A stretch of DNA of 64,000 nt from Rivularia sp. MS3 (GTDB lineage: Bacteria; Cyanobacteriota; Cyanobacteriia; Cyanobacteriales; Nostocaceae), in the NCBI GenBank assembly GCA_019192545.1, contig JAHCMI010000006.1:62001-126000 (forward strand), in the 5' to 3' direction. A program made the position numbers and the translations under genes. Below the pieces are notes generated by a model. That model saw nothing but the letters and a program-made list of their open reading frames with translations, had not been told where the DNA came from and made no database searches. Shown here piece by piece: positions 1-20,978 of this stretch. Positions within the stretch are counted from its first letter, which is position 1, and the number at the start of each line of letters is the position of its first letter.

Positions 1-285
1 AAATAGGTTAGCGACAACGAACAAAGACCAAAAATAGTTAGTTAGGGGTGCAAGAGTGATATTAAATATCAAGGTAGATGTCACAACAGTTAAAGTTGTT
101 GCCATAAATAGCAGCAAACCATTGAGCTTGTAAGATTTCCGAGTACCATCTAGTTGCAAACAACCTGTGTATTGTTTACCTGGCAGAAAGATTGTACCGA
201 GAAACATTACACTCACGAAGCCTACAAATATCAGCGATGCATAAGCCAAACTAACAGGGGTAATTGAATCGATGGGGTTATTCAC
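1..285 (-). CDS. ERG4/ERG24-family sterol reductase-like protein (partial, N-terminus only)
   Basis: Ninety-five codons are present, reading from a GTG at 285 down to the window edge, so the C-terminal part is missing. The visible part has a first membrane segment (about residues 15-33), then a luminal-type motif FLPGK...G..L.DGTR..YKLNG (about residues 35-63), then a second membrane segment. LPG-G-DGTR-YK-NG is characteristic of the ERG4/ERG24 family, the sterol C-14 and C-24(28) reductases and 7-dehydrocholesterol reductase. The family reduces sterol double bonds with NADPH in membranes. The gene starts 17 nt after the stop of the squalene-synthase-like gene, so the two are probably cotranscribed. 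The exact bond reduced cannot be told from this fragment, and the catalytic C-terminus lies outside the window. An isoprenoid-modifying DUF1295 relative is the main alternative. Confidence 0.66.
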   Translation of the reverse strand, partial: MNNPIDSITPVSLAYASLIFVGFVSVMFLGTIFLPGKQYTGCLQLDGTRKSYKLNGLLLFMATTLTVVTSTLIFNITLAPLTNYFWSLFVVANLF

Positions 286-302
286 GTTTCTAGGTATTGT
301 TT

Positions 303-1121
303 TTACTTTCCACTAGTTACTTTTTCAATTAGGCTCATAACTGCACTACGGCTGAGTTTTGGCTTTCCAAGAGTCAAAACATCCAAAGTCGCATGAGCTA
401 ATGTCAAGGGAATGATACAAAAATTAAAAGCAGGACCTTGAGGAAGTGCTTTAGTATAGGCATCAGCTAGAGACAGGTTGCGACGAGCATACATTTGCAT
501 ATTCTCTTTCGTCCAACCATTGGGAAAGAAATCCACTCCGCGTTCTAAATCATCACTGGTATTGCGGAGAATATTAACAGCTTGCAAACCCCTACCAAAG
601 CCTATTGCTTGGGAACGGTTGGTTGTGGTGCCATCGTACCAAGCCCATAAGTCTGATAGCATTAATCCCACAGCACCAGCGACGCTGAAGGTGTAACAAT
701 CCAAGTCAGATTCTGTATCAATTTTCCAGCCCGTAAGCGCCCAGTGAGCCATCCTGTCTGCCATTGCTGCGGTTGCATCCCAAATACGGGGAGCAATGCT
801 TTCTGGAGCTAAAGCTACCCATTCTCCAATACGAGTTGTTACCTCTGGTAGAGGTTGAGAAGAGCTATTAAATAGCATGGAAAAGTCATCAACAGCAGTT
901 TCTAAGGCAGTTGATTGCAGTTTTAAGCTAATCTTTCTTAAGAGTTGAGCTTTAGATGAATTATCCAGACTGGGATGATCTTCAACTTCATCAATGGCAC
1001 GCATACACAAATATGCAGAAGCAGTTGCCTCTTGAAGCCCGGAAGGTAAACGACTAATTGGGATATAAAAGGTACGGCTAGTTTCTTCTAGAGCTTTGAG
1101 AGCATTCTTGCATGAATTCAT
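303..1121 (-). CDS. Squalene/phytoene synthase family protein
   Basis: A 272-residue all-helical prenyl transferase that would condense two prenyl diphosphates head-to-head, giving squalene or presqualene-type products from FPP or phytoene from GGPP. The first aspartate-rich motif is DEVED (residues 44-48), after an SRTFY segment near residue 15 that binds diphosphate in the family. The second motif is NILRNTSDD (183-191), followed by ERGVDFFP. The first Asp of the usual RDxxxD is Asn here, a pattern I recall from one bacterial subgroup. Length is normal. The ATG at 1121 is preceded by an AGGGAA ribosome site. It is first in a probable two-gene unit with the sterol-reductase-like gene and diverges from the P450/SDR/Rieske series. 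That context favours a squalene/triterpene role over carotenoids, but phytoene synthesis cannot be excluded. Confidence 0.85.
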   Translation of the reverse strand: MNSCKNALKALEETSRTFYIPISRLPSGLQEATASAYLCMRAIDEVEDHPSLDNSSKAQLLRKISLKLQSTALETAVDDFSMLFNSSSQPLPEVTTRIGEWVALAPESIAPRIWDATAAMADRMAHWALTGWKIDTESDLDCYTFSVAGAVGLMLSDLWAWYDGTTTNRSQAIGFGRGLQAVNILRNTSDDLERGVDFFPNGWTKENMQMYARRNLSLADAYTKALPQGPAFNFCIIPLTLAHATLDVLTLGKPKLSRSAVMSLIEKVTSGK

Positions 1122-1171
1122 TATTGTTCCCTATAAACCTATAAAATAGATAGCTGTCGATTGTCTCTTAA

Positions 1172-1903
1172 AAACAACGTCGTCAACACTACAATCCCGA
1201 TGGTAGCGATATCTTTAACTTACTGATTTCAGCACGGGATGAAAATGGTGAACCAATGACAGATGAAGAGTTACATGATGAATTACTAGTTCTTTTAATG
1301 GCTGGTCATGAAATCACCGCAGCAGCCATGACTTGGGCATTGTATTGGACGCATTCTCTAGCAAATGTGGAAAATAGAATATTAGAAGAGCTAGATACTT
1401 TGCATGTTTCAAAAGACCCAATCAGCGTTTCCCAACTGCCATACCTCACGGCTGTTTGTAAAGAAACCCTACGTCTTTATCCCGCCGCAATTGCTTCTTC
1501 TGCACGACTTGTCACCTCGTCCGTTGAGTTGGGGAGCCATAAATTAGACCCTGGTACAATGGTGATGCCTTGTATTTATTTAACTCATCATCGTCAAGAT
1601 TTATATCCCGATTCCAAACAGTTTCAACCCGAGCGCTTTTTAAAACGACAGTTTTCTCCCTATGAATATTTCCCATACGGAGGCGGAAATCGTAGCTGTA
1701 TTGGCGCAGCTTTTGCGATGTTTGAAATGAAGTTGGTTTTGGCAACTATGTTGGCAAAATATAAGCTGGCTCTGAGCGAGAACCAAACCGTACACCCTCA
1801 GTATCAAAGTTTTTTGCTGGCACCTGCTGGTGGAGTAAAAATGATTGTTGAGAAATCGGCGAAATCTAATGAAGCTAAAATGTTTACAGCTCAAAAAAAT
1901 TAG
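1172..1903 (+). pseudogene. CYP110-like cytochrome P450, N-terminal half missing
   Basis: The frame is open from 1172 (an in-frame TAA lies at 1169), and P450-like sequence is already present ahead of the first ATG at 1256: RRQ...DIFNLLISARDENGEP. Downstream are the I-helix AGHEIT, the ExxR motif in KETLRLYP, PERF, and the heme loop FPYGGGNRSCIG with the cysteine thiolate ligand. The text around LTHHRQDLYP and RQFSPYEYFPYGG resembles cyanobacterial CYP110 (fatty-acid or terpene hydroxylase), not CYP51. About 240 codons remain of the usual 440-460, so helices A to H are gone. The protein is very unlikely to fold as an active monooxygenase. The break lies within about 50 bp of the divergent squalene-synthase gene, consistent with a deletion. 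A short protein from ATG 1256 could still be made. Confidence 0.8.
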
Positions 1904-1965
1904 CACAACATATAGTTAATATACATAACAAAATTAGATTTTTTTAGTAAAAAATTGATATTTGC

Positions 1966-3033
1966 ATGACTATTTTAGTTACTGGTGCTTCCGGTCATTT
2001 AGGAGCCAACTTAGTTCGACGTTTGCTTGATGAAGGTGAAGCTGTTCGGGTGCTGCTGCGCGAGGGCAGTAATAATGCTGCTGTTGAGGGGTTAGCCGTT
2101 GAGAAAGTTTATGGCGATCTGCGTGAGTGGTCATCAGTTTTAGCAGCAGTCAAAGGATGCGATCGCATTTATCACGCGGCAGCAAAAATTTCTACCCTCT
2201 ATGGTAATGCCCGTTTTCAACAAGAACTCTACGACTGCAATGTTCTAGGAACTCGTCATCTGCTGCGTGCAGCCTTAAAGGTAGGGGTTAGCAAAGTTGT
2301 TGTCACCGGTTCGAGTGCTGCTCTGGGATACAAACCGGGTGAACCGAGTAACGAAAGCACACCATTTTATCCTTTTACTAAAACCTTGCCTTACGAGTTG
2401 ACAAAAGTTTTTGTTGAGCAAGAATGTTTAAAAGCATTTGCCGATGGATTAGATGTAGTCATCGTTCAGTCTTGGGCTATCGTTGGACCTAACGATTTCA
2501 AGCCATCTCGCTTGGGACAGACATTAATAGATTTTGCCAATGGCAAATTGCCAGCCTACACAACAGGTGGACGTGATTGGGTTGCAACTCGGGATATTGT
2601 TGCTGCACATCTGTTGGCAATGGAGAAAGGGCGTTCGGGACAAACCTACACAATCAGTAGCGAATTTTTGACTTTGCCCCAGATGATGGAATTGTTTGAA
2701 AAAGTAACTGGAAAACATCGTCCAATGCTGTGTTTACCTATATCAATGATGGCAGGTGTAGCGACAGTGGCTGACATAATCATGCCTCGACTTTTTCCCC
2801 ATACACAACGATATTTAACAGCCGGAGCTATAAAATTAGTACGAACGAATCAAAGAGCTGATTGCACTAAAGCAAAGAAAGAACTAGGGTATCAGCCAAC
2901 ATCGATTGAGCAGGCTGTTGTTGAAGCATATACAGATTTTGTGCAAAGAGGTTTGATTGCCAGACCTAAACAGATTTTGGTTTCTCAAGGGACACCTTCA
3001 CAACCAACAGCAACAAAAATAGGAATCAAATGA
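1966..3033 (+). CDS. NAD-dependent epimerase/3-beta-hydroxysteroid dehydrogenase-like SDR (copy 1)
   Basis: A 355-residue extended short-chain dehydrogenase. The nucleotide motif TGASGHLG (residues 6-13) opens a Rossmann fold. The catalytic set is Ser116 in VTGSS, Tyr143 and Lys147 in YELTK. The family includes 3-beta-HSD, NSDHL (sterol-4-carboxylate 3-dehydrogenase, decarboxylating), dihydroflavonol reductases and the bacterial sterol C-4 demethylation enzyme SdmB. It would oxidise or reduce the C-3 oxygen of a hydrophobic substrate with NAD(P). The stop overlaps the start of the next SDR (ATGA at 3030), so the two are translationally coupled, and three Rieske oxygenases follow. The copies are clearly paralogous from the first residues to the C-terminus. 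The steroid substrate is inferred from the neighbourhood; the SDR sequence alone would also fit other small-molecule substrates. Confidence 0.82.
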   Translation: MTILVTGASGHLGANLVRRLLDEGEAVRVLLREGSNNAAVEGLAVEKVYGDLREWSSVLAAVKGCDRIYHAAAKISTLYGNARFQQELYDCNVLGTRHLLRAALKVGVSKVVVTGSSAALGYKPGEPSNESTPFYPFTKTLPYELTKVFVEQECLKAFADGLDVVIVQSWAIVGPNDFKPSRLGQTLIDFANGKLPAYTTGGRDWVATRDIVAAHLLAMEKGRSGQTYTISSEFLTLPQMMELFEKVTGKHRPMLCLPISMMAGVATVADIIMPRLFPHTQRYLTAGAIKLVRTNQRADCTKAKKELGYQPTSIEQAVVEAYTDFVQRGLIARPKQILVSQGTPSQPTATKIGIK

Positions 3034-4061
3034 CAGTATTAGTCACAGGAGCTTCCGGTCATTTAGGAGCCAATTTAGTTCGACGCTTGCTTGACGAAGG
3101 TGAAACTGTACGAGTGCTGCTACGTCATGGCAGTAATAATGCTGCGGTTGAAGGGCTACCAGTTGAGAAGGTTTATGGTGATTTACGGGATTGGTTATCA
3201 ATTTTAGCAGCAGTGAAAAAATGCGATAAAATTTACCACACAGCTGCGAAAATCTCTACCCTCTATGGTAATGCTAGTTTCCAACAAGAACTTTACGACT
3301 GTAATGTTTTGGGAACCCGTCATCTGCTTCATGCAGCCTTGGAAGAAGGAGTTAACAAAGTTGTTGTCACGAGTTCTTGCGAAGCCATAGGACATCAACT
3401 GGGAAAACCAAGTAATGAAAACACACCATTCTATCCCTTTCCTGAAACTTTGCCCTATGCACTCACCAAAATTTTTGTTGAGCATGAGTGTTTAAAAGCA
3501 TTTGCCGATGGTCTGTTTGTTGTGATTGTTCAACCCTGGCCTTATATCGGCTCGAATGATTTTAAACCTTCTGCTATGGGGCAAACACTTTTAGACTTTG
3601 CTCGCGGTAAACTACCCGCTTATACGACCGGAGCAAGATGCTGGGGAGCGATGAGAGATATGGTCGAGGGACACATCCTAGCCATGAAGTCAGGACGTGC
3701 AGGGCAGAAATACACCTTCAGTACAGATTTTTTAACCATGGATGAAATGCTCAGTTTGTTTGAAAAGATAACCGGAAAAAAACGTCCAAAGCTTTGCATT
3801 CCAACATCAATGATGGCAGATATAGCAAAGGTGACAGATTTGATTATGCCGCGATTATTTCCCCAGATGCCACATAATTTGACTTCAGGAGCAATACATC
3901 TACTACAAATGAATCAAAAAGCCGACTGTAGTAAAGCTAAAAATGAGTTAGGATACAAACCAACATCGATTGAGCAAGCTGTTGGTGATGCTTACACCGA
4001 CTTTATTCGTCGAGGTTTAATTATAAATACGAACAAACTTATTTCCGTAACTCAATCTTGA
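3030..4061 (+). CDS. NAD-dependent epimerase/3-beta-hydroxysteroid dehydrogenase-like SDR (copy 2)
   Basis: A 343-residue tandem paralogue of the preceding gene, sharing long identical stretches in the N-terminal Rossmann region (TGASGHLG, then GSNNAAVEGL). Catalytic residues remain: Ser116 in VTSSC, and Tyr143 and Lys147 in YALTK. Divergence concentrates in the substrate half (about residues 150-260), for example PWPYIGSNDF against SWAIVGPNDF in copy 1, and in the tail. This is what one expects if the copies act on different intermediates. The start ATG overlaps the previous stop by 4 nt. It is followed at 90 bp by the first Rieske gene, giving a likely operon SDR-SDR-Rieske-Rieske-Rieske. 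It plausibly partners a Rieske oxygenase in oxidative removal of a methyl or carboxyl group, as in the SdmA/SdmB pair. The substrate is unknown. Confidence 0.82.
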   Translation: MTVLVTGASGHLGANLVRRLLDEGETVRVLLRHGSNNAAVEGLPVEKVYGDLRDWLSILAAVKKCDKIYHTAAKISTLYGNASFQQELYDCNVLGTRHLLHAALEEGVNKVVVTSSCEAIGHQLGKPSNENTPFYPFPETLPYALTKIFVEHECLKAFADGLFVVIVQPWPYIGSNDFKPSAMGQTLLDFARGKLPAYTTGARCWGAMRDMVEGHILAMKSGRAGQKYTFSTDFLTMDEMLSLFEKITGKKRPKLCIPTSMMADIAKVTDLIMPRLFPQMPHNLTSGAIHLLQMNQKADCSKAKNELGYKPTSIEQAVGDAYTDFIRRGLIINTNKLISVTQS

Positions 4062-4096
4062 AACTAATATCAAGCCTCTCACGATCTTTTTATCTA

Positions 4097-4124
4097 GTTA
4101 ATTTAAGTTAGTTAATTTAAGTTA
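4097..4124. repeat. Two-copy 14-bp tandem repeat upstream of the first Rieske gene
   Basis: GTTAATTTAAGTTA occurs twice back to back, ending 25 bp before the ATG of the first Rieske gene. It could be a slippage product or a dimeric regulator site. No function can be assigned. Confidence 0.6.
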
Positions 4125-4149
4125 GCTGGCATTTTATAAGCAGATTACC

Positions 4150-5148
4150 ATGAAGCAATCCTCTTCTTCACACCTCTGTTTTCCTAATGGTTGGTTCCGT
4201 ATTGCCTATAGTAATGAGATTCCGCCGAAAACTGTCAAGCCGCTCCATTACTTTGGTCAAGATTTAGTGCTATTTCGTACCGAGAAAGGGGTTGTTCGTG
4301 TTTTCGATGCCCACTGCTCACACTTAGGTGCTCATCTAGGTTACGGCGGGATTGTCAAAAATGAGACGATTCAATGTCCTTTTCATGGTTGGTGTTTTAA
4401 TAACAGTGGCAATTGTACTCAAATTCCTTATACAAACAAAATACCTCCGAAAGCACAAATTCGGACTTGGCCAGTTAGAGAAGTTAATGGTTTAATAATG
4501 ATTTATTACCATTCTCAAGGACATTCCCCTGATTGGGAAATTCCAGAGTTGCCAGAATTTTTATCTCAAAATTGGACTTCATTATTACCTGTGATTCGAC
4601 GTAAAAGTAGCACTTCTACTCAAGAAGTTGGTGAAGGAAGTATTGTAGATACGGCTCACTTTAGCCACTTGCATCCTCACACATTTGATGAAATAAAAGG
4701 CGAATCTTTAGTTGTCAGCTATCCAACTCTTACCTACAAAATGTATCCAGAATATAACTTATCTGGAGTAGCTAAGATATTAGGAGTAGAGGGAAAAACT
4801 TCGTTAGACTTTACATCCTATGGTTTGGGTTGCTTGGTTGTGCGCTCTTCCAGTAAAGCAATGGTGGAGATCGAAACTCTTACGATGTTTCTGCTAACGC
4901 CAATTAATCAGAACTCTATTGATTTTCATTTTCTTGTTAGTATCAAAAAGGTATTGAATAAACCTATAACTGCCCTACTTAAAAAATTTATTAAAGATTC
5001 TGCAATTAAAACGCTAAAAGAAGATATGAAAATCTGGGAGAATAAGATTTTTCGCACTCACCCTCTACTCTGTGATGGGGATGGACCAATCGCACAGTAT
5101 CGTCGTTGGGTAAGTGAGTTTTACACAGATATATCAGTACCCTTGTAG
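4150..5148 (+). CDS. Rieske non-heme iron oxygenase, copy 1 of 3
   Basis: A 332-residue aromatic-ring-hydroxylating-type oxygenase alpha subunit. The Rieske [2Fe-2S] ligands are Cys56-x-His58 and Cys76-x2-His79 (CPFHGW). The mononuclear iron site is Asp167-x2-His170-x4-His175 in VDTAHFSHLH. The family uses electrons from a ferredoxin reductase to activate O2. This arrangement, with a short C-terminal catalytic domain, resembles single-subunit Rieske enzymes acting on sterols (DAF-36/Neverland cholesterol 7-desaturase, KshA, bacterial SdmA). No dedicated reductase is seen nearby, so host ferredoxin is presumably used. It is the most divergent of the three copies: it has a different N-terminus, and Ser57 replaces the Pro found between Cys and His in the others. 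An oxygenase on sterol, triterpenoid or another lipid fits; the substrate is inferred from context only. Confidence 0.87.
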   Translation: MKQSSSSHLCFPNGWFRIAYSNEIPPKTVKPLHYFGQDLVLFRTEKGVVRVFDAHCSHLGAHLGYGGIVKNETIQCPFHGWCFNNSGNCTQIPYTNKIPPKAQIRTWPVREVNGLIMIYYHSQGHSPDWEIPELPEFLSQNWTSLLPVIRRKSSTSTQEVGEGSIVDTAHFSHLHPHTFDEIKGESLVVSYPTLTYKMYPEYNLSGVAKILGVEGKTSLDFTSYGLGCLVVRSSSKAMVEIETLTMFLLTPINQNSIDFHFLVSIKKVLNKPITALLKKFIKDSAIKTLKEDMKIWENKIFRTHPLLCDGDGPIAQYRRWVSEFYTDISVPL

Positions 5149-5362
5149 AGTAAGTAGAAATAACTTTTTATGAGTCATGAGCTAATAGTAATGTTGACAA
5201 AAAATTGTATTAATTACTTAAGTTTAAACTGATTCTCGCCAACAAAGCTTAAAATTTCTATCACAACTAGAAATAGCTTCCTATAAAAAGTTTTTGGCTA
5301 ATCTAACTTAGACCACCGATGATTGTATTCTTGAAGAATCTAACTCTACACTTTATCAGCTG

Positions 5363-6334
5363 ATGAAATCGCGCTTTCCCTTTACATCTTTTCCTAATGG
5401 TTGGTTTTGCATTGCCTACAGTCATGAATTATCTGCGAAACAAGTTATACCACTACACTATTTTGACAGAGATTTAGTGCTTTTCCGGAGCGAAGATGGA
5501 ATCGCTCACGTACTGGATGCTTACTGTCCTCATTTGGGCGCACATTTGGGTCACGGAGGACAAGTTAAAGGTGAGAAAATTCAATGTCCCTTTCATGGGT
5601 GGTGTTTCGATGGCAAAGGACAATGCCTTGATATCCCGTATGCAAACAAAATTCCACTAAAAGTACAAATTCAATCTTGGTTGGTTAAAGAAGTTAATGG
5701 GTTAATTCTGGTGTGGTATCATACTCATGGAGAAAAGCCTACCTGGGAGATACCAGAACTTCCTGAATATACTTGCTCTCAATGGACTTCCTTTCGCACT
5801 GTTGGTCAATGGAAGATTCGTTCACACGTTCAAGATATCAACGAAAATGCTTTAGATACCGCTCATTTGCAGTATTTACACGGGGTTGATTCTGTCAAAG
5901 GCAAAAGTTTACACAAAGAGGGTTGTATTTTGCGCTGGCCTTGCTCTACAACAAGCAAGATTGCTGCTGATGCTCAAGGATCGAGCGTTGAAGTAGTAAG
6001 CAAAATTGAATTTACTTTTTATGGTTTAGGCTATACAGTGCAGCGCTGTTGTACTAAAGGAATAATTGAGCAAGAATTTATAACAATAAATTTAAATACC
6101 CCAGTAGACATAGAATATGTTAACTCTTACTTAATTATTAGTTTCAAAAAACACTCGGAGCAATCTGAAATTTCTGATTTAGAAGCAATGACACTTCAAG
6201 TGGTCGCTATGGAAGCTCAGAAAGATATGCCAATTCTAGAAAATAAAGTGTATCAAAGTTCGCCTATCTTAAGTGATGGCGATGGACCAATTATGCAGTA
6301 TCGTCATTGGGCACAGCAATTTTATTTAAATTAA
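5363..6334 (+). CDS. Rieske non-heme iron oxygenase, copy 2 of 3
   Basis: A 323-residue paralogue. Cluster ligands are Cys55-x-His57 and Cys75-x2-His78; iron ligands are Asp165, His168 and His173 (LDTAHLQYLH). The first 18 residues are nearly identical to copy 3 (MKSRFPFTSFPNGWFCIAYS), marking a recent duplication. The C-terminal half is shorter and lacks the KKLFNK/KKVLNK segment of the other two, so the substrate pocket probably differs. A 214-bp AT-rich gap separates it from copy 1, while only 9 bp separate it from copy 3. It probably shares electron donors with its sisters and acts on the same pathway. Reaction type (hydroxylation, demethylation or desaturation) is not visible in the sequence. 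Confidence 0.87.
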   Translation: MKSRFPFTSFPNGWFCIAYSHELSAKQVIPLHYFDRDLVLFRSEDGIAHVLDAYCPHLGAHLGHGGQVKGEKIQCPFHGWCFDGKGQCLDIPYANKIPLKVQIQSWLVKEVNGLILVWYHTHGEKPTWEIPELPEYTCSQWTSFRTVGQWKIRSHVQDINENALDTAHLQYLHGVDSVKGKSLHKEGCILRWPCSTTSKIAADAQGSSVEVVSKIEFTFYGLGYTVQRCCTKGIIEQEFITINLNTPVDIEYVNSYLIISFKKHSEQSEISDLEAMTLQVVAMEAQKDMPILENKVYQSSPILSDGDGPIMQYRHWAQQFYLN

Positions 6335-6343
6335 TTTATTTTT

Positions 6344-7345
6344 ATGAAATCACGTTTTCCATTCACATCTTTTCCTAATGGCTGGTTTTGTATTGCTTAT
6401 AGTCACGAACTATTGCCTGGAGATGTTAAGCCAATCCACTATTTTGGACAAGATTTAGTACTCTTCCGAACAGAATCTGGAACTCCATATGTGCTTAATG
6501 CTCACTGTCCTCACTTAGGAGCGCACCTCGGTTATGGAGGTTGCGTTCAAGGTGAAACCATTCAATGCCCTTTCCATGGTTGGCGTTTTAATGAGGACGG
6601 GAAATGCATAGAAGTACCTTACGCTAATAAAATCCCAGCTAAAGCACAAGCTCGAACTTGGTGTATCCGAGAATTAAACGGAGTGATTTTAGTTTATTAT
6701 CATGCTCAAGGGAAACCACCGACTTGGGAACCACCACAAATACCTGAATTAAATTCTCAAGAGTGGACAAAATTTAAGGAAGTTGATCGGTGGCGAATCA
6801 ACTCTCATTTGCAAGATTTACACGAACAAGTTGTAGACATTGCCCATTTCCCGACAGTGCATTCCGACCATTCTGCAAAAAGTCAAGGCTCTGATGTAGA
6901 TGGTCCGGTTTGGAAGCAACGTCTTTACTCAGGGCAGGCTTTTAAAGCTGCAACATTAGACTTCAAGATAGAAACCCAATACGAAATTGCTCTTTATGGC
7001 TTGGGTTATAGCTTACAAAGATATTGTATAAATGGAATTGGTAAACTACAATTCATTCTCCTATTTTTGACAACACCAGTGAATGAGAAGTGTGTTGAGA
7101 TTCAATTACTAATTAGTGTCAAAAAGTTATTTAATAAAGCCATAGCTTCGGTTATTACGTCTTTAGTGCTAAAAATGTTGAAGCAGGAAATGGAAAAAGA
7201 TATTACTATTCTGGAGAACAAACTGTACCGTAAGGTTCCTCTTTTATGCGATGGTGACGGTGAAATCATAAGATATCGCCATTGGGCTAGCCAGTTCTAT
7301 TCTGAAAATTTAGAACTACTTCCTTCCCTTCAAAAAATTACCTAA
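6344..7345 (+). CDS. Rieske non-heme iron oxygenase, copy 3 of 3
   Basis: A 333-residue paralogue with intact sites: Cys55-x-His57, Cys75-x2-His78, Asp165, His168 and His173 (VDIAHFPTVH). It starts 9 bp after the copy 2 stop, so it is almost certainly cotranscribed. The residues after the iron motif (SDHSAKSQGSDVDG) and the block around 190-215 differ from copy 2 although the N-terminal Rieske domains are close. That suggests retained electron transfer with altered substrate recognition. It is the last intact gene of the terpenoid island; transposase debris begins about 100 bp downstream. The best-known relatives by architecture are sterol-acting Rieske monooxygenases, but pheophorbide or choline-type Rieske oxygenases share the same motifs, so specificity is inference. 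Confidence 0.87.
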   Translation: MKSRFPFTSFPNGWFCIAYSHELLPGDVKPIHYFGQDLVLFRTESGTPYVLNAHCPHLGAHLGYGGCVQGETIQCPFHGWRFNEDGKCIEVPYANKIPAKAQARTWCIRELNGVILVYYHAQGKPPTWEPPQIPELNSQEWTKFKEVDRWRINSHLQDLHEQVVDIAHFPTVHSDHSAKSQGSDVDGPVWKQRLYSGQAFKAATLDFKIETQYEIALYGLGYSLQRYCINGIGKLQFILLFLTTPVNEKCVEIQLLISVKKLFNKAIASVITSLVLKMLKQEMEKDITILENKLYRKVPLLCDGDGEIIRYRHWASQFYSENLELLPSLQKIT

Positions 7346-14193: not shown

Positions 14194-15126
14194 ATGTTGA
14201 GAATTATAGAATATTTGGTCTTTGCGATTGGTGCGGCAGCGATTATCGTTGTTAGCTATTTGATGGGACAATGGTCATATTCCTGGTTGCCTGTTGAGGC
14301 AAGTACAGATGCTCAAAGGATTGATGACCTATTTTGTTTCCTAGTCACTTTAGGTTCGGTTATTTTCTTTGGGGTAATTGGCATGATTTTATTTTCGCTA
14401 ATTGCTTATCGCGCACCCAAAGGAGACTATAGCGAGGGGCACCCAATTAGAGGTGATTGGAAGTTAGAAGTTACTTGGACTGCGATTCCAACTTTATTAG
14501 TGTTAATTATCGTTGGTTATAGCTTCATAATTTATCAAAAAATGGATATCGCTGGACCTACGCGGGTGCTAGGGGAACTACCCGTAGGAATTCAAAGAGC
14601 TAATGCCCAAACTATTAACCAGAATATTGCAGACACCGAACTAATCGAGGTGATTTCTCAGCAGTGGGACTGGACTTTCCGCTATCCAAAACAGAACGTT
14701 GTTAGTAAGGAACTGCATCTACCGAGCAACCAGCGCGTTCGCTTAGTGTTGCAATCGAAAGACGTTCTCCACGGATTCTATGTCCCAGAATTTCGCATCA
14801 AACAAGATATTATCCCCAACCGTAATATTAATTTTCAGTTTATACCGACCCGCGTAGGTAAATATCAGTTGCATGATTCCCAATTTAGCGGCACATATTT
14901 CGCCGTCATGCAGGCAGATGTTTACGTGGATACTCCCCAAGATTATGTCAGATGGTTGGCACAAGCAGCTAATCATCCTTCAAATACTTTGAGTTTGGCG
15001 GCTTCCGAAGAGGCTCAACCACCTCATCAAGTTTTCAAAAGTAATTGGTATACAGTTTTACCCGCAAAACCTAAAGAGGTAGATAGTTCAAATTTTGCAT
15101 TAAGGAATTTTACTAATGACCAATAA
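14194..15126 (+). CDS. coxB: Terminal oxidase subunit II, ARTO type without CuA
   Basis: A 310-residue subunit II with two membrane helices (about residues 8-27 and 48-72) and a cupredoxin domain (about 150-245). The first CuA histidine remains (His193 in VLHGFYVPEF). At the second ligand group the usual C-x-E-x-C-G-x2-H-x2-M reads Asp228-x-Gln230-x-Ser232-G-x2-Phe236-x2-Met239, so both cysteines, the glutamate and the second histidine are gone. A binuclear CuA centre cannot form, so the enzyme should accept electrons from quinol and not from cytochrome c6 or plastocyanin. This is the hallmark of the cyanobacterial alternative respiratory terminal oxidase. Its 3' end overlaps subunit I by 11 bp. 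Confidence 0.9.
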   Translation: MLRIIEYLVFAIGAAAIIVVSYLMGQWSYSWLPVEASTDAQRIDDLFCFLVTLGSVIFFGVIGMILFSLIAYRAPKGDYSEGHPIRGDWKLEVTWTAIPTLLVLIIVGYSFIIYQKMDIAGPTRVLGELPVGIQRANAQTINQNIADTELIEVISQQWDWTFRYPKQNVVSKELHLPSNQRVRLVLQSKDVLHGFYVPEFRIKQDIIPNRNINFQFIPTRVGKYQLHDSQFSGTYFAVMQADVYVDTPQDYVRWLAQAANHPSNTLSLAASEEAQPPHQVFKSNWYTVLPAKPKEVDSSNFALRNFTNDQ

Positions 15127-16789
15127 TCCTGCTCAAAGTCTTGCTGGTGCTAGTGAATCGGCAACTCACAGCGAAATTCACAACTGGCGGCAATATTTTA
15201 GTTTCAATACCGACCATAAGGTAATTGGGATTCAGTATTTAGTAACAAGCTTTATCTTTTTCCTAATTGCTGGCTTATTAGGCATGTTCATCCGTGCCGA
15301 ACTGATTACCCCTCCCTCAGATTTGGTGGATCGTCCTCTTTACAATGGCTTATTCACCATGCACGGCACGCTGATGATTTTCTTATGGATTATTCCATCG
15401 TTGGTAGGTTTAGCTAATTATTTAGTACCGTTGATGATTGGGGCTAAGGACATGGCTTTTCCCACCCTGAACGCCATCTCTTTCTGGCTGATTCCACCGG
15501 GGGGTTTGTTACTAATGTCAAGTTTCTTGCTACCTAGTGGTACGGCTCAATCTGGTTGGTGGTCTTATCCGCCGTTGAGTATTCAGAATCCAGGGGATAA
15601 TCTGTTAAACGGTCAACTTTTTTGGTGTCTGAGTCTGGTTGTACTCGGCATATCCTCAATTATGGCAGCGGTTAACTTTGTTACCACTATTATCTGGCTG
15701 CGAGCGCCGGGGATGACGTTTTTTCGGATGCCGATTTTCGTATGGTCTGTATTCAGCGCCCAAATACTTCAGTTGCTTTTCCTGCCTTCTCTGACTGGAG
15801 CAGCGATTATTCTATTTTGCGATTTGACTTTCGGGACTAATTTCTTTCGACCCTTTGTAGACGGCGATCCGGTACTTTACCAACATCTATTCTGGTTTTA
15901 CTCTCACCCCACAGTATACGTATGGGCGCTACCCTGTTTCGGTATTTTCTCGGAGATTATCCCAGCCTTCAGCCGCAACCCATTGTTTGGGTATCGGTCA
16001 GTGGCGATCGCCACGATTTCTTTAGCGGTAATTACCTCGGTGGTGTGGGTTCACCATATGTTTGCCAGCGGTACGCCGGAGTGGATGCGGTTACTATTTA
16101 TGCTGACTTCAGAGCTTGTCGCCGTCCCTACGGGAATCAAAGTATTTGCCTGGACTGCTACGATTTGGAGGGGAAAACTACACTTAGAAACCCCGATGCT
16201 GTTTGCCATCGGTGGAGTGATGATGTTTCTTGTGGGTGGGGTAACTGGGGTAATGCTGGGCGCGATGCCTTTTGACCTGCACGTTAACAACACCCATTTT
16301 ATAGTGGGACATTTTCATTATCTCGTTTTCAACACCATCACAATGGCAATATATGGAGCAGTTTACTTTTGGTTCCCTAAGATGACCGGACGAATGTATG
16401 CTGAAGGTTGGGGCAAAATCCATTTCTGGCTAACCTTTATTGGTGCCAACCTTACCTTCTTCCCGATGTTTCCCTTGGGTTTACAGGGAATGGTACGCCG
16501 CATCTCTTCCTACGAACCGCAATACGCTGGTTGGAACATCCTCGCTAGTTTGGGAGCGTTCTTACTGGGAGTATCCACACTACCTTTTATCGCCAATATC
16601 ATTGCTTCCTGGCTATACGGTGCCAGAGCTACCAAAAACCCCTGGTTAGCAACTGGGTTAGAGTGGATAGTTTCCTCACCACCACCCAAAGAGAACTTTG
16701 AAGAAATTCCCCACGTTCACTTTCCCCCATACAGCTACGGAAGTCCTCAAGCTTGGTCTCAAGATGCTTCCGATCCATATGATTATTAA
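15116..16789 (+). CDS. ctaD: Terminal oxidase subunit I (heme-copper, A2-like), ARTO
   Basis: A 557-residue subunit I with twelve membrane helices. Low-spin heme ligand His83 is in TMHGTLM. CuB ligands are His264 with the cross-linked Tyr268 in YSHPTVY, and His313-His314 in WVHHMF. The HFIVGHFHY block near residue 390 carries the high-spin and second low-spin heme ligands. The usual Glu of HPEVY is Thr, and the YSHPxVY signature of A2-type oxidases is present, so proton transfer uses the Tyr-Ser variant of the D channel. The enzyme reduces O2 to water and pumps protons in the cytoplasmic or thylakoid membrane. It starts inside the end of coxB. Subunit III follows after a 213-bp repeat-filled spacer. 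Confidence 0.95.
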   Translation: MTNNPAQSLAGASESATHSEIHNWRQYFSFNTDHKVIGIQYLVTSFIFFLIAGLLGMFIRAELITPPSDLVDRPLYNGLFTMHGTLMIFLWIIPSLVGLANYLVPLMIGAKDMAFPTLNAISFWLIPPGGLLLMSSFLLPSGTAQSGWWSYPPLSIQNPGDNLLNGQLFWCLSLVVLGISSIMAAVNFVTTIIWLRAPGMTFFRMPIFVWSVFSAQILQLLFLPSLTGAAIILFCDLTFGTNFFRPFVDGDPVLYQHLFWFYSHPTVYVWALPCFGIFSEIIPAFSRNPLFGYRSVAIATISLAVITSVVWVHHMFASGTPEWMRLLFMLTSELVAVPTGIKVFAWTATIWRGKLHLETPMLFAIGGVMMFLVGGVTGVMLGAMPFDLHVNNTHFIVGHFHYLVFNTITMAIYGAVYFWFPKMTGRMYAEGWGKIHFWLTFIGANLTFFPMFPLGLQGMVRRISSYEPQYAGWNILASLGAFLLGVSTLPFIANIIASWLYGARATKNPWLATGLEWIVSSPPPKENFEEIPHVHFPPYSYGSPQAWSQDASDPYDY

Positions 16790-16796
16790 TTGGGAA

Positions 16797-16985
16797 TTGG
16801 GCATGGGGCATTGGGCATTGGGCATGGGGCATTGGTAATTGGTAATAGGCATTGGTAATTGGTAACAGCTAGGGAGCAAGATGCTCCCACTACAAATATT
16901 TCTCCTTGTCCCCCTCTCCCCTTGTCTCCCCATCACCCCATCTCCCGTTCTCCCCCTCTCCCCCTCTCCCGTTCTCCCCCTTTCT
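16797..16985. repeat. Repeat tract between subunit I and III genes
   Basis: The first part (16797-16862) is a chain of degenerate heptads (GGGCATT, GGTAATT). The second (about 16906-16985) is almost pure pyrimidine with runs of CCCC and CTCCC, so the minus strand is G-rich with many GGG blocks and could form G-quadruplexes. The tract breaks what is normally a tight oxidase operon. Confidence 0.8.
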
Positions 16986-17002
16986 TTAAAGCCGAGTAAG
17001 TT

Positions 17003-17707
17003 ATGCAAAATTCTGCCCCACAAAATCTTAGACCCAGCCACGAAGATCCCCGATATGGTCAAGAAGATGAAATTTTTGTCGATTTAGAGCAGTTGCGGCA
17101 GAAAATGCCACGTCCTTTGCGGCGATTTTTCCCTAACGGTGGGGGACACCATCATCGCGAGAAGGATAGAACGTTATTTGGCTTCACCGTGTTTCTGATG
17201 TCGGAAAGTGTCATCTTCCTCGCTTTTATTGTCAGCTACATCGCTTTGCGGCTAACTGCTGAAACTTGGCTACCACCTGGGGTGAAAGGACCGGAAGTAT
17301 CAACTTCTATCATTATTTATACGGTAGTTCTTTTATCCAGTAGCTTGGTTATCTACTTAGCCGAACGTGCTTTAGAGCGCGGTAAAATCAATCTATTTCG
17401 CTTGCTGTGGCTGACTACTTCGGCAATGGGAAGCTTTTTTCTATATGGTGAGATTAAAGAGTGGTTGAGTAATAGTTTTGGACCTTCTACGGGTTTAGTC
17501 GGCTCAACCTACTACCTGCTGACGGGTTTCCACGGTTTGCACGTGACTGCCGGAATCATTCTACAGTTAATTATGCTCGGTCGCTCTTTCATTCCCCATA
17601 ATTATGATAAAGGACATTTTGGTGCTACTGCGGTTTCTTTGTTCTGGCATTTAGTTGATGCAATCTGGATTATTCTGTTTTCGCTTCTTTATCTTTGGAA
17701 AGCGTAA
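17003..17707 (+). CDS. ctaE: Terminal oxidase subunit III, ARTO
   Basis: A 234-residue subunit III with a hydrophilic N-terminal extension (1-55, including the HHHRE stretch) followed by five membrane helices, the arrangement typical of bacterial oxidases. The signatures FLMSESVIFLAF and the late block FHGLHVTAGI and LFWHLVDAIWI are family hallmarks. The subunit stabilises subunit I and affects proton uptake; it holds no redox centre. A GCCGAG leader precedes the ATG and no clear Shine-Dalgarno sequence is present. It completes the three-subunit set started by coxB and ctaD. A 124-bp MITE follows 12 bp after the stop codon and may act as the 3' end of the message. Confidence 0.92.
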   Translation: MQNSAPQNLRPSHEDPRYGQEDEIFVDLEQLRQKMPRPLRRFFPNGGGHHHREKDRTLFGFTVFLMSESVIFLAFIVSYIALRLTAETWLPPGVKGPEVSTSIIIYTVVLLSSSLVIYLAERALERGKINLFRLLWLTTSAMGSFFLYGEIKEWLSNSFGPSTGLVGSTYYLLTGFHGLHVTAGIILQLIMLGRSFIPHNYDKGHFGATAVSLFWHLVDAIWIILFSLLYLWKA

Positions 17708-17718
17708 ACTACTTTTAT

Positions 17719-17842
17719 AGGACTTACGCAACTGGCATATTTTTCTTGTAGGGTGCTGTGACACTTCGACTATTTCTGAACGTAGTAATAACCTTTTTAG
17801 TGTCACGCACCAACAGGTAATTGTGACAATTGCGTAAGTCCT
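17719..17842. mobile_element. 124-bp MITE-like element, copy A
   Basis: Terminal repeats are AGGACTTACGCAA at the left and its complement at the right. An inner pair GGGTGC-GTGACAC / GTGTCACGCACC gives a second stem. A same-length copy in the same orientation is found at 54267-54390. It carries no coding sequence and would depend on a transposase in trans. It sits directly after ctaE. Confidence 0.8.
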
Positions 17843-18016
17843 GTTTTAATTTATAGGGTCTAAAAAACAGCGATAAATCGCTTACTACGAGCAAAAATAA
17901 GCGATACATTCTGATTGATTCAGATAACCTGAATTTATCGTTTTAAGAGAAAAGAATATTTGCTCTTATTAATTAACTTACCTAAAGTTAAATCAACCAA
18001 GAAGGGTAAGGTTGAT

Positions 18017-19069
18017 ATGAAGCAATTTCACAAATCAAAACATTTATCGCCGACTCGCCGCAACAGAAATAATCGACAATGGATACAGCAACTAGGTGCA
18101 GGACTAACCCTGACTTCCGGACTGGCACTTTTAGCGACTTTTCTACATACTCTACCGGGATTGGGACTATTTAGTCCTTTAATTCTGGCAATACTTCTCG
18201 GTATTTTGGTTCGCAATACTGTAGGAACTCCCCAAGTTTGTCAGTTGGGAATTACCTTCTCACTCAAGCGGATTCTCAAGTTTGCGATTATTCTGCTGGG
18301 TTTGCAACTTAGTTTGGAACAGGTGATTGAAGTCGGTGGGGTAGGACTTTCTATCGTTACCCTTTCCTTGCTCGCGACCTTTGTTTTCACCTGCTGGCTG
18401 GGTAAACGCTTGGGTGTAGATAGAAAACTCTCACAACTTATTGCTGCGGGTGCTTCTATTTGTGGAGCTTCTGCGGTGATTGCTACCAATGTGGTAGTCG
18501 ATGGTCATGATGAGGATGTTGCTTACGCAGTGGCAATGGTAACGGTTTTCGGTACTGCTTCAATGTTGCTATATCCGCTGTTACCGGGACTGCTGCACCT
18601 TACACCCCAAGCATTCGGGCTTTGGTGCGGTGCTTCGATTCATGAAGTAGCTCAAGTTATTGCTGCTGCCTTTCAAGATGGTAAAGTTAGCGGTGAAATT
18701 GCGACCATTTCCAAATTATCGCGGGTAATGCTACTGGCTCCGATGGTTTTAGGACTAGGGCTAATATCTGCTCGCACGAATCAAAAAGGACGAAAGCTCA
18801 ATCTACGTCAAATGCCAATCCCTTGGTTTGTGCTGTACTTTTTAGGGGTAATTATTCTCAACAGCTTGAATATTTTCCCCGCAGGTGCAAAAGCCGCAGT
18901 CATACAGATAAATCAATTTTTATTAGCAATCTCCTTGGCAGCGATGGGATTAGAAACGAGTTTATTAAAGCTCAAGCAAGCGGGAATAAAACCTTTATAT
19001 TTAGGAGCTGCTTCTTGGTTGTTTATCTCTGTATTTAGTTTGGGTTTAATTAAAATCTTTTATTGGTAA
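18017..19069 (+). CDS. YeiH/UPF0324 family putative sulfate (sulfite) exporter
   Basis: A 350-residue protein from ATG 18017, chosen because AAGG precedes it and because the frame upstream (to 17960) lacks homology-like sequence. It has about ten membrane helices after a basic N-terminus (HLSPTRRNRNNRQW). Family signatures include LGILVRNTVG, ITFSLKRILKFAIILLG, GASICGASAVIATNVVVD and CGASIHEVAQVIAAA. The family is annotated as putative sulfate exporters, and E. coli YeiH is under the LysR regulator YeiE. The transported ion remains inferred. The universal stress protein gene starts 5 bp after its stop, so they are likely cotranscribed. Confidence 0.85.
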   Translation: MKQFHKSKHLSPTRRNRNNRQWIQQLGAGLTLTSGLALLATFLHTLPGLGLFSPLILAILLGILVRNTVGTPQVCQLGITFSLKRILKFAIILLGLQLSLEQVIEVGGVGLSIVTLSLLATFVFTCWLGKRLGVDRKLSQLIAAGASICGASAVIATNVVVDGHDEDVAYAVAMVTVFGTASMLLYPLLPGLLHLTPQAFGLWCGASIHEVAQVIAAAFQDGKVSGEIATISKLSRVMLLAPMVLGLGLISARTNQKGRKLNLRQMPIPWFVLYFLGVIILNSLNIFPAGAKAAVIQINQFLLAISLAAMGLETSLLKLKQAGIKPLYLGAASWLFISVFSLGLIKIFYW

Positions 19070-19074
19070 TAAAT

Positions 19075-19485
19075 ATGTGGCAACGCATTTTAGTCGCAAC
19101 GGACGGAACAGAATTAGCTCGAATAGCTGTTGATGAAGCGATCGCTCTAGCTGCTTTAACTCAAGCTCAACTTTTCGGCATCTTTGTAGTCGATCCAGTG
19201 GATTTTGATGAAGATATTGCCGAGCAGATGTTACAAACAGGTCAGTCTGAGCGACAAAGGTTTGAGCAAGCAGCAAAAGTCCAGAACGTTCCAGTTCAGT
19301 TTGAACTTAAAACGGGAGAACCTGTAGTTGAAATTCTATCTATGGCAAAGACTGTTAAAGCCGAGTTGATTGTAGTTGCACCCCATCATCGTAGTTCCTT
19401 TTATCATCTCCTAATTCAGAAAAGTGTAACAAATAGATTGGTCGAGCAAGCCAAACAATCTATCTGGATTGTTAATCCTGCATAA
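19075..19485 (+). CDS. Universal stress protein (UspA family)
   Basis: A 136-residue single-domain Usp from ATG 19075. The N-terminal WQRILVATDGTELA strand-turn is typical, and the fold ends with KQSIWIVNPA. The ATP-binding signature GxxG-x9-G(S/T) of the UspFG type is replaced by APHHRSSFYHLLIQKSVTNR, so nucleotide binding is doubtful. Such proteins dimerise and appear under energy or redox stress. The gene lies between the YeiH exporter (5 bp upstream) and cydA (45 bp downstream) on the same strand, so it is probably induced together with the bd oxidase. Its molecular target is unknown. Confidence 0.85.
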   Translation: MWQRILVATDGTELARIAVDEAIALAALTQAQLFGIFVVDPVDFDEDIAEQMLQTGQSERQRFEQAAKVQNVPVQFELKTGEPVVEILSMAKTVKAELIVVAPHHRSSFYHLLIQKSVTNRLVEQAKQSIWIVNPA

Positions 19486-19530
19486 ACGTAAATTATGCAG
19501 TTAAACCGCGAGAATTAATTGAGGAAAATA

Positions 19531-20970
19531 ATGGAATTTTTATCTAATACAGTTGCCTTGTCGCGGATGCAGTTTGCCTTAACGGCAACATTTCATATGC
19601 TTTGGCCAGTTTTAACCACTGGTATGGGTATTTACTTGGTTATTGTTGAAGCACTATGGCTCAAAACTCGCAATCGCGATTATTATTACCATGCTCGCTT
19701 CTGGTCTAAGCTTTACGTTCTAAATTTTGGTATCGGAGTAGCAACTGGAATTCCGATGGAATTTCAGTTTGGCACTAATTGGGCATCTTTTTCGGAAGCA
19801 ACAGGAGACTTTTTTGGCAGCATTATAGGCTTTGAGGCTTCAATGGCATTTATGCTGGAGGCTGGCTTTTTAGGGATTATGCTGTTTGGCTGGGAGCGAG
19901 TTAATTCAGTAATTCACTTATTCGCTACCGTAATGGTAGCTTTTGGGGCTAATTTATCAACGTTTTGGATTTTAACGGCAAACTCCTGGATGCAAACACC
20001 TAGCGGTGGGGAATTTATTGATGGCAAATTTGTAGTACGCGATTTCTTTGAGGCTATGTTTAGTCCATTTATGCTTAATAGCGTGCTGCATATGTTTTTT
20101 GCGACTTTAGAAACTTCTTTGTTCGTTATTGGTGGCATTAGCGCTTGGTATATTCTCAATCAACGCAATTCGGAGTTTTTTGCCAAGTCATTGAAAGTGG
20201 TTTTAGCTGTGGCGATCGCCGTTGCTCCCCTGCAAATTTACATCGGACATCTTAGCGGCGAACAGGTTTATCACTACCAGCCCACAAAACTGGCAGCGAT
20301 GGAAGCTCAGTGGAATACTACACCTGCTGGACAAGGTGCTGACTGGAGTTTGGTTGCTTGGCCCAATGAAAAGAGCGAAAAAAACGATTGGGAAATTACC
20401 GTTCCTAACGCTCTAGGATACATTTTGGAATTCAAACAAAAGCTTTCAGAACCCGTAAGAGGTTTAAAATCATGGCAGCCAGAAGATCGACCTCATTTAT
20501 TGCCTTTGATTTACTATGCTTTTCGCATCATGATTGCCATTGGTTTTTTCTTTGCAGGATTGATGCTATGGAGTACCTTACAGTGGTTGCGAGGTAAGCT
20601 GAGTGGAGAAACTATTGCTCAACAACGTTGGCTGCTACGGGCTTGGGTTATTGCTGCTCCTCTGGGCTATATCGCTGTAGAGTCGGGTTGGATTGTGCGT
20701 TGTGTAGGTAGACAACCTTGGACGGTTTACGGACAAATTCGTACTGCCGATGCTGCGTCTAATTTACCTGCTCAAACTGTTCTTTCGTCTTTAATTGTTT
20801 ACGCTGCTATTTATTCTTTGCTGTTTGTGGCAGCACTATTTTTTGGTAGCCGTATCATCCGTCGCGGACCTAAATTCGACTTACCTATTCCTGGCGAAGA
20901 AAAACCCCCGATTGAAACCGACTCAGCCGAACACCTTCCGAATCAGCGTCCAGCAGAAGCACAACAATAG
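19531..20970 (+). CDS. cydA: Cytochrome bd-type quinol oxidase subunit I
   Basis: A 479-residue CydA from ATG 19531, with GAGG 5-10 bp ahead. An upstream TTG at 19519 is less likely. His22 in TFHMLWP is in the position of the axial high-spin heme ligand. The conserved block FEASMAFMLEAGFLGIMLFGW (around 100-120) and GRQPWTVYGQ near the C-terminal third are diagnostic. The periplasmic Q-loop is of the short type, as in cyanide-insensitive oxidases. The enzyme oxidises quinol and reduces O2 with high affinity without pumping protons. It is followed at 8 bp by cydB. With ARTO just upstream, two copper-independent or quinol-fed oxidases cluster here. Confidence 0.95.
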   Translation: MEFLSNTVALSRMQFALTATFHMLWPVLTTGMGIYLVIVEALWLKTRNRDYYYHARFWSKLYVLNFGIGVATGIPMEFQFGTNWASFSEATGDFFGSIIGFEASMAFMLEAGFLGIMLFGWERVNSVIHLFATVMVAFGANLSTFWILTANSWMQTPSGGEFIDGKFVVRDFFEAMFSPFMLNSVLHMFFATLETSLFVIGGISAWYILNQRNSEFFAKSLKVVLAVAIAVAPLQIYIGHLSGEQVYHYQPTKLAAMEAQWNTTPAGQGADWSLVAWPNEKSEKNDWEITVPNALGYILEFKQKLSEPVRGLKSWQPEDRPHLLPLIYYAFRIMIAIGFFFAGLMLWSTLQWLRGKLSGETIAQQRWLLRAWVIAAPLGYIAVESGWIVRCVGRQPWTVYGQIRTADAASNLPAQTVLSSLIVYAAIYSLLFVAALFFGSRIIRRGPKFDLPIPGEEKPPIETDSAEHLPNQRPAEAQQ

Positions 20971-20978
20971 GAGAATTT

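Follow-up and report, generated by a model that had tools for sequence, protein, structure and literature searches.

The left end of a 64,000-nucleotide stretch of the cyanobacterium Rivularia sp. MS3 (assembly GCA_019192545.1, contig JAHCMI010000006.1) carries part of a sterol gene cluster that is cut in two by the edge of the stretch. The whole stretch, hereafter the window, corresponds to C120:62001-126000, where C120 is the contig and window base 1 is C120:62001; the complete cluster comprises 16 genes over 18.6 kb (C120:50790-69345), arranged as a core operon on the minus strand and a divergent second arm on the plus strand. We regard it as very probably a functional sterol cluster and, with nearly as much confidence, read its genes as a largely self-contained cyanobacterial set, in which a core operon is accompanied by a divergent, lineage-variable tailoring arm. 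The gene content suggests that this cyanobacterium probably makes cholesterol-like sterols and then oxidises them further.

The core is transcribed in the order squalene synthase (SQS), ERG24-family reductase, fused squalene epoxidase-oxidosqualene cyclase (SQE-OSC), ERG2, RIE1, EBP, GGR-family protein, SDR0, CYP51, and SdmA, with intergenic gaps of -4 to 115 bases, and every core protein matched its family with an E value of 5e-14 or better. The second arm starts 134 bases from the SQS start and contains a P450 relic, SDR1, SDR2, RIE2, RIE3, and RIE4, separated by up to 214 bases; no RNA family reached the gathering score between SQS and SDR1 (searched in L003:12000-14500). Except for the P450, the reading frames of window positions 1-7345 are uninterrupted. 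The ERG24-like gene, the SQS-like gene, the two SDR genes, and the three Rieske genes listed there by the initial annotation are all present, and its proposal of a sterol or triterpenoid island is supported by CYP51, SdmA/SdmB, ERG2, EBP, and the OSC-type cyclase, which point to sterols rather than to other triterpenes. That no cyclase or epoxidase was in view is correct for the window and does not hold beyond it: extension to the left, as had been suggested, revealed both, fused, 0.9-4.2 kb left of base 1 (Table 1).

Table 1. Genes of the sterol cluster and the neighbouring plasmid gene block
Feature	Position	Strand	Evidence
SdmA-type Rieske, 370 aa	C120:50790-51902	-	in SdmA clade of Rieske tree
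CYP51, 453 aa	C120:51920-53281	-	best matches sterol 14-alpha demethylases
SDR0/SdmB, 348 aa	C120:53298-54344	-	groups with SdmB-type SDRs
GGR-family FAD protein, 364 aa	C120:54386-55480	-	GGR_cat 27 bits
EBP-family protein, 166 aa	C120:55524-56024	-	PF05241 E 4.5e-14
RIE1 KshA-like Rieske oxygenase, 334 aa	C120:56044-57048	-	KshA_C E 5e-33
ERG2/sigma-1-type isomerase, 198 aa	C120:57045-57641	-	PF04622 E 5.8e-61
Fused SQE-OSC, 1,114 aa	C120:57757-61101	-	squalene epoxidase and oxidosqualene cyclase domains
ERG4/ERG24-family sterol reductase, 368 aa, crosses window edge	C120:61179-62285 (window 1..285, first 95 aa)	-	PF01222 E 6e-80
SQS squalene synthase, 272 aa, first core-operon gene	window 303-1121	-	PF00494 E 1.3e-24
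Truncated P450, 215 aa, I-helix to C-terminus	window 1256-1903	+	PF00067, profile positions 258-455 of 462
SDR1, 355 aa, SdmB paralogue	window 1966-3033	+	Epimerase/3Beta_HSD fold, GASGHLG and YxxxK
SDR2, 343 aa, SdmB paralogue, 4-base overlap with SDR1	window 3030-4061	+	Epimerase/3Beta_HSD fold, GASGHLG and YxxxK
RIE2 Rieske oxygenase, 332 aa	window 4150-5148	+	PF00355 and PF19298 (KshA_C E 1e-28)
RIE3 Rieske oxygenase, 323 aa	window 5363-6334	+	PF00355 and PF19298 (KshA_C E 8e-29)
RIE4 Rieske oxygenase, 333 aa	window 6344-7345	+	PF00355 and PF19298 (KshA_C E 2e-32)
Plasmid gene block, about ten genes	C120:36107-44729		collinear with cyanobacterial plasmids

Core enzymes and the predicted sterol

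Residues 4-407 of the fused protein aligned with squalene epoxidase (human SQLE, E = 1e-25), and residues 467-1104 aligned with human lanosterol synthase (E = 1.8e-149, compared with 9e-62 for squalene-hopene cyclase, SHC). The cyclase domain contains the catalytic motif VSDCTAE and is closer in similarity to OSC than to SHC. An AlphaFold2 model of the fusion (pLDDT 83.1, pTM 0.61), based on an alignment of 16 fused bacterial proteins, contained two confident domains and a disordered linker (residues 423-460), and Foldseek matched the model to human OSC (1w6k, TM 0.83 by target) and human SQLE (6c6n, TM 0.85). Since Calothrix rhizosoleniae SC01 carries the same fusion (90% identical), an assembly error is unlikely. 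Fused SQE-OSC proteins with this domain order accounted for 25 of the 61 OSC rows compared, spread over Actinomycetota, Pseudomonadota, Myxococcota, Elusimicrobiota, and Cyanobacteriota; among the nine cyanobacterial rows, only those from this genome and C. rhizosoleniae were fused, and on the 61-row OSC tree the fused/unfused label required eight changes. This tree excluded rows in which at most 450 positions aligned (L064, L086, L092, and L034, which is in two pieces), and L017, whose fused frame is broken, was scored as unfused. The fusion as such is not a novelty, as fused SMO/OSC homologues are already mentioned in the methods of PMC10070321; the wording "fusion" is absent from the main text of PMC10202945, PMC12004948, and PMC4919349.

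The cyclase domain is 66% identical to the OSC of Calothrix sp. NIES-4105, which yields lanosterol in E. coli according to passages of the study by Lee, Wei and Welander (2023, PMC10202945), and judged from sequence the first ring product here is quite probably lanosterol as well. The same source reports that the NIES-4105 SdmB alone gives lanosterone, while SdmA and SdmB together strip both C-4 methyls. The SdmA-type protein of Rivularia fell inside the SdmA clade (a clade named from homology within sterol clusters), and SDR0 grouped with the SDRs of bacterial sterol clusters in a 38-row tree of SdmB-like proteins. For CYP51, which has the heme motif, the best solved match was 7jj1 (E = 5e-128), and its best matches are sterol 14-alpha demethylases. 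ERG2 and EBP, unrelated families with the same known activity, are found together in one cluster here, in C. rhizosoleniae, and in NIES-4105. The genome encodes two SQS_PSY proteins, the cluster SQS and one on contig C1, presumed to be phytoene synthase. The GGR-family protein scored exactly at the family cut-off for GGR_cat, and its position inside the sterol cluster matches what parts of PMC12004948 report for cyanobacterial sterol clusters, where Bsr, a bacterial C-24 reductase, belongs to the GGR family.

From the homology of each core protein, the pathway would begin with the formation of squalene by SQS, followed by epoxidation by the N-terminal domain of the fusion and cyclisation of the product to lanosterol by its C-terminal domain. 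CYP51 would then take off the C-14 methyl and the ERG24-family enzyme would reduce the double bond formed, SdmA and SdmB would strip both C-4 methyls, ERG2 and/or EBP would shift the double bond from delta8 to delta7, and the GGR-family enzyme would reduce the side chain at C-24. The output predicted in this way is likely a C27 sterol, demethylated at C-4 and C-14.

Several points speak against this reading of the core. The ERG24 family also includes C-7 and C-24(28) reductases, and no C-5 desaturase was recognised among the cluster genes; four FA_hydroxylase proteins are encoded elsewhere in the genome, one of them, on contig C93, with ERG3-like letters by eye. The nine cyclase letters compared, at human positions 381 and 449-456, are identical to those of NIES-4105 and, being common to 33 of the 61 rows, discriminate little, which lowers the likelihood of lanosterol. 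Furthermore, the sterol analysis of NIES-4105 itself was judged inconclusive, and the strain stopped making sterols (passages of PMC10202945).

When eight of the ten core genes (all but SQS and ERG24) were compared with those of C. rhizosoleniae, the ratio of nonsynonymous to synonymous substitution rates (dN/dS) was 0.08-0.25, with dS of 0.22-0.44; the core is under purifying selection in the eight genes compared. This also bears on whether the cluster might serve the use or degradation of external sterols. KshA-type Rieske and SDR enzymes are typical of steroid degradation, but SQS, SQE-OSC, and CYP51 serve biosynthesis, purifying selection acts on the latter two, and the 16 genes include no recognisable gene for KSTD, ring cleavage, or side-chain beta-oxidation, making such a role highly improbable.

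Related clusters in other cyanobacteria

The closest studied system, through which this kind of cluster is already known, is the NIES-4105 cluster, with a published size of 21 kb (PMC10202945, in part). It has the same order of genes: SQS, ERG24-type, SQE, OSC, ERG2-type, KshA_C Rieske, EBP-type, GGR-like, SDR0/SdmB, CYP51, and SdmA, with identities of 73% for SdmB and 77% for SdmA. However, SQE and OSC are separate, overlapping frames in NIES-4105, GGR and ERG24 appear there only as partial frames in stop-to-stop reading, and genes for a methyltransferase and a further FAD protein have been inserted. The NIES-4105 locus lies in the 11-Mb main record of a genome that has kept SHC, and the 23 kb read contained one more KshA_C gene and no SDR1-SDR2-RIE2-RIE3-RIE4 arm. 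A ParB-like gene adjoins the NIES-4105 cluster.

Besides the fusion, C. rhizosoleniae (L004, L131) has the core order in common with Rivularia; the matching DNA lies on two C. rhizosoleniae contigs and is 89-93% identical. It differs by a Cupin_8 gene between RIE1 and EBP and, upstream of SQS, by a different SDR gene and a Rieske fragment 46% like RIE4, both oriented like the core. The two genomes therefore agree in their core, one inserted gene apart, and differ in the oxidising genes that flank it.

Sterol genes were rare in the order, with OSC in 7 and ERG2 in 5 of the 291 genomes sampled. Passages of PMC4919349 listed OSC in Planktothrix, Prochloron, and Westiella in 2016, and PMC10202945 mentions similar sterol capacity in other cyanobacteria. 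The rarity of sterol genes in the order would fit DNA that is non-functional or foreign, whether misassembled or derived from a contaminating eukaryote or other bacterium. Against this, the fusion and gene order recur in the independent C. rhizosoleniae assembly, the flank is a cyanobacterial plasmid block, the contamination given for the host assembly (a 9.19-Mb draft in 174 contigs) is 1.59%, and the G+C content of the cluster (0.40) is within the contig range (0.35-0.43); we consider this the least probable of all the explanations weighed.

Core composition varies, too, in more distant relatives. Amazonocrinis nigriterrae CENA67 (L005 and L083) shares SQS, SQE, OSC, ERG2, RIE1, GGR, SDR0, and SdmA, with SQE and OSC as separate genes, and no CYP51-, EBP-, or ERG24-type frame was matched in the two stretches read. 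P450b, SDR1, SDR2, RIE2, and a further Rieske gene come after SdmA and are oriented like the core. The next six genes encode two glycosyltransferases, an SDR, a PMT_2 protein, a radical SAM protein, and an FkbM methyltransferase, and then come four more Rieske genes, including the partner of RIE3 (about 10 kb further on), and an acyltransferase. The Amazonocrinis cluster thus exceeds 30 kb and has seven KshA_C Rieske genes, as if for a decorated steroid. None of the three Hormoscilla loci gave an EBP match, and in L007 no more than a fragment matched RIE1 and GGR. In Hormoscilla sp. GM7CHS1pb (L034 11041-13325 and 14256-15262), the OSC and SdmB frames are each in two pieces, unlike those of two sister metagenome-assembled genomes (L007, L035); the broken frames reflect either sequencing error or decay.

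A divergent arm of SdmB-like and KshA-like enzymes

The first gene of the second arm, described by the initial annotation as a P450 relic, is indeed one: it lacks the N-terminal half, with about the first 245 residues gone and the break at the junction. Completion of this P450 elsewhere in the genome was rejected, because the lost half was not found in the genome, in which other full-length P450s match at 42-48%. In Amazonocrinis, by contrast, the P450 is full length (486 aa) and the arm runs with the core, whereas here it lies at the other end and is inverted. Both the arm position and the truncation are most simply explained by an inversion with one breakpoint inside the P450 gene.

The predicted 3-beta-HSD-like character of SDR1 and SDR2 was borne out by their folds and motifs (Table 1), and so was their suggested link to SdmB. 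In the SDR tree, whose 38 rows are all SdmB-like with no other SDR family, such as the sugar epimerases, as outgroup, and from which matches over <230 positions or of ≤140 bits were excluded, both fell inside the cyanobacterial SdmB-type clade with a support of 98/97. With SDR0 there are three SdmB-type proteins in the cluster, and by their place in the tree SDR1 and SDR2 are duplicates of SdmB.

RIE2, RIE3, and RIE4 retain, as the initial annotation had stated, the metal ligands when aligned to KshA (two Cys and two His of the cluster, two His and an Asp of the iron), although the Asn of the NxxD motif is replaced by Gly in RIE2, as also in its Amazonocrinis orthologue, and by Gln in RIE4. 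Their comparison with SdmA did not stand: they are of the KshA_C type and were set apart from nine SdmA rows at 100/100, SdmA is encoded separately, at the cluster's far end, and SdmA identity was rejected for RIE1-4 alike. The Rieske tree omitted L086 and L092 (copies), L107 and L112 (473-479 aa), the fragment in L007, rows of ≤90 bits, and 25 of the 34 SdmA-like rows. Pfam assigned no pheophorbide-oxygenase domain to RIE2-4, and for their paralogue RIE1 the best solved chain was KshA (4qdc, E = 1e-39), compared with 5e-18 or worse for aromatic-acid enzymes. The four KshA_C proteins of the genome are all in this cluster. As for orthology with Amazonocrinis, SDR1 (76%) and SDR2 have one-to-one relatives there, RIE2 pairs with its orthologue (70%), and RIE3 has its nearest relative in Amazonocrinis as well (62%); no one-to-one orthologue was found for RIE4.

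3-Ketosteroids are products of SdmB-type enzymes and substrates of KshA, a 3-ketosteroid 9-alpha-hydroxylase, which with the DAF-36/Neverland sterol C-7 desaturases is among the known systems closest to these Rieske proteins. The likeness of KshA to the cluster proteins is by sequence, with the KshA_C domain and the metal ligands in common and a long branch between them. On this basis, SDR1 and SDR2, duplicated from SdmB, would oxidise the 3-hydroxyl to a 3-ketone, the KshA-like Rieske enzymes would hydroxylate or desaturate the resulting 3-ketosteroid, and the end product would be an oxidised steroid, not plain membrane cholesterol. We put forward this combination of 3-keto formation and Rieske oxidation tentatively, at somewhat less than even chances.

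Other observations weigh against such a function. With its truncated P450, the arm has decayed at least in part, and none of the 16 cluster genes was recognised as encoding a ferredoxin or its reductase. KshA is a distant relative of the cluster Rieske proteins (branch 1.6), and the next best solved relatives of RIE1 were SxtDIOX (E = 3e-26) and SxtT (E = 2e-24), enzymes of a non-steroid pathway. Strong KshA_C matches (E ≤ 1e-20) occurred in 14 of the 291 order genomes, including this one, and 11 of these 14 had no OSC (at E ≤ 1e-100); some of the KshA_C proteins of OSC-less genomes nested among the in-cluster ones, with weak support. KshA_C was consequently rejected as a sterol marker, and given these OSC-less carriers and the SxtDIOX and SxtT relatives, the family is not tied to sterols. 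In six of the seven surroundings inspected (7.8-15 kb, from 7 of the 11 OSC-less genomes), no homologue of a cluster protein was found besides the Rieske protein itself. Nine KshA_C proteins from OSC-less cyanobacteria (L084, L085, L087-L091, L093, and L096) formed a clade of their own (100/100); five of the nine surroundings were read, and these contained no other cluster-protein homologue beside them. The seventh surrounding from the OSC-less genomes, in genome G050 (L121 1092-12583), has two Rieske genes, one of them KshA_C, along with two P450-like frames and one that by eye resembles a class II terpene cyclase, and is a possible oxidised diterpenoid cluster.

It could be argued that the core makes membrane sterols that replace hopanoids, and that the second arm is a decaying remnant without a present role. 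The truncated P450 and the inversion relative to Amazonocrinis fit decay, but SDR1, SDR2, and RIE2-4 are uninterrupted and have kept their catalytic letters. Compared with Amazonocrinis, SDR1, SDR2, RIE3, and the P450 relic had dN/dS values of 0.09-0.17 at dS of 1.5-1.8, which is near saturation, and RIE2 and RIE4 were saturated; since the relic itself falls in this range, the ratio cannot separate a relic from a gene. We consider this explanation unlikely, and return to its hopanoid part below.

A plasmid of Planktothrix agardhii No.2A (p2, NZ_LR882940.1, 62 kb; L065 1-28304) carries a sterol-type cluster with SQE, OSC, CYP51, other P450s, an SDR1-like gene, three KshA_C Rieske genes, a carbamoyltransferase, EBP, and Cupin_8. 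It also encodes a 3-oxosteroid 1-dehydrogenase homologue (best chain 7p18, E = 1.6e-149), and genome G092 (L124, L125) has a similar set, with a 75% identical 3-oxosteroid dehydrogenase. The presence of such a dehydrogenase in OSC/CYP51/Rieske clusters fits the 3-ketosteroid logic proposed for the arm. The plasmid set and its G092 counterpart, together with the joining in Amazonocrinis of core homologues to seven KshA_C genes and to glycosyl-, acyl-, and methyltransferase genes, would suit a specialised-metabolite cluster in which the sterol is the scaffold of a secreted, heavily oxidised steroid. On the other hand, no decorating genes beyond Rieske and SDR were recognised among the 16 genes here, one of the seven Amazonocrinis KshA_C proteins lacks the Rieske ligands in translation, and we know of no measured product for such Amazonocrinis or Planktothrix clusters. 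This scaffold role is possible, with odds we put at roughly one in three.

Plasmid linkage, hopanoid cyclases, and implications

About 6 kb beyond the SdmA end of the cluster lies a block of about ten genes (Table 1) that is collinear with plasmid2 of Nostoc linckia NIES-25 and plasmid C of Trichormus variabilis, two plasmids typed as conjugative. In a collection made up of plasmids only, the FtsK-like gene of the block was matched over at least 80% by 13 records, all cyanobacterial and of 215-395 kb, whose genera, two excepted, are our own assignments. No overlap between the contig ends was found in this draft. The cyclase tree placed Rivularia and C. rhizosoleniae with Hormoscilla at 100/100, and holding together the five rows taken as Nostocales, a group named from taxonomy after the tree had been seen and with the order of this genome inferred, was rejected (approximately unbiased test, p-AU = 9e-9). 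The cluster is probably on a plasmid-derived element, and the plasmid linkage together with a cyclase tree that contradicts taxonomy makes transfer between cyanobacteria likely. On the same contig, window positions 15104-21989 (C120:77104-83989) contain frames resembling, by eye, a cytochrome c oxidase set and a bd-type oxidase. Right of the window, C120:173034-178257 contains a tyrosine-recombinase gene (PF00589, E = 1e-28), a second match below the cut-off, and companion frames at the contig end, which resemble a Tn554-type tnpABC set.

No SHC was found in the genome, in which the only PF13243 match is the fusion, whereas 22 of 28 other sampled family members had a strong PF13243 match. The lack is no more than suggestive of sterols replacing hopanoids in this organism. 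However, about half of the order sample has no SHC (it was present in 151 of 291 genomes), and three of nine sterol-cluster genomes keep it. Within the order, SHC occurred in one of seven OSC genomes compared with 150 of 284 others, counted at E ≤ 1e-30 with each non-OSC match taken as SHC; as three of the seven OSC genomes belong to one genus, a tie between the sterol cluster and SHC loss was not established.

A broader and rather speculative view, which we hold unlikely as a whole, is of a modular steroid pathway that moves on conjugative plasmids. A sterol core would be combined with exchangeable 3-ketosteroid-tailoring modules, made up of duplicated SdmB dehydrogenases and KshA-like Rieske families and, elsewhere, of 3-ketosteroid 1-dehydrogenases, P450s, and sugar or carbamoyl transferases, to give hormone-like oxidised steroids; in Rivularia, sterols would also replace hopanoids.

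Within the scope of the searches, two features appear to be new: the second arm (SDR1-SDR2-RIE2-RIE3-RIE4), some of whose genes have orthologues in the larger Amazonocrinis cluster, and the nearby conjugative-plasmid block. Neither these nor the Planktothrix 3-ketosteroid-dehydrogenase cluster was found in the open-licence literature, and the supplementary lists of PMC10202945 and PMC12004948 may include this genome or its relatives. Sterol making by cyanobacteria is controversial, and several cases have been traced to fungal contamination (passages of PMC10202945); sterane fossils are widely taken as signs of eukaryotes (PMC10070321, in part). Cyanobacterial sterol making can be put to a clean genetic test with this nearly complete cluster, since purifying selection acts on its core and no hopanoid cyclase was found in the genome. 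The plasmid linkage and the taxonomy-contradicting cyclase tree suggest that the trait moves between cyanobacteria, and the Rieske-rich arms hint at unknown bacterial steroids.

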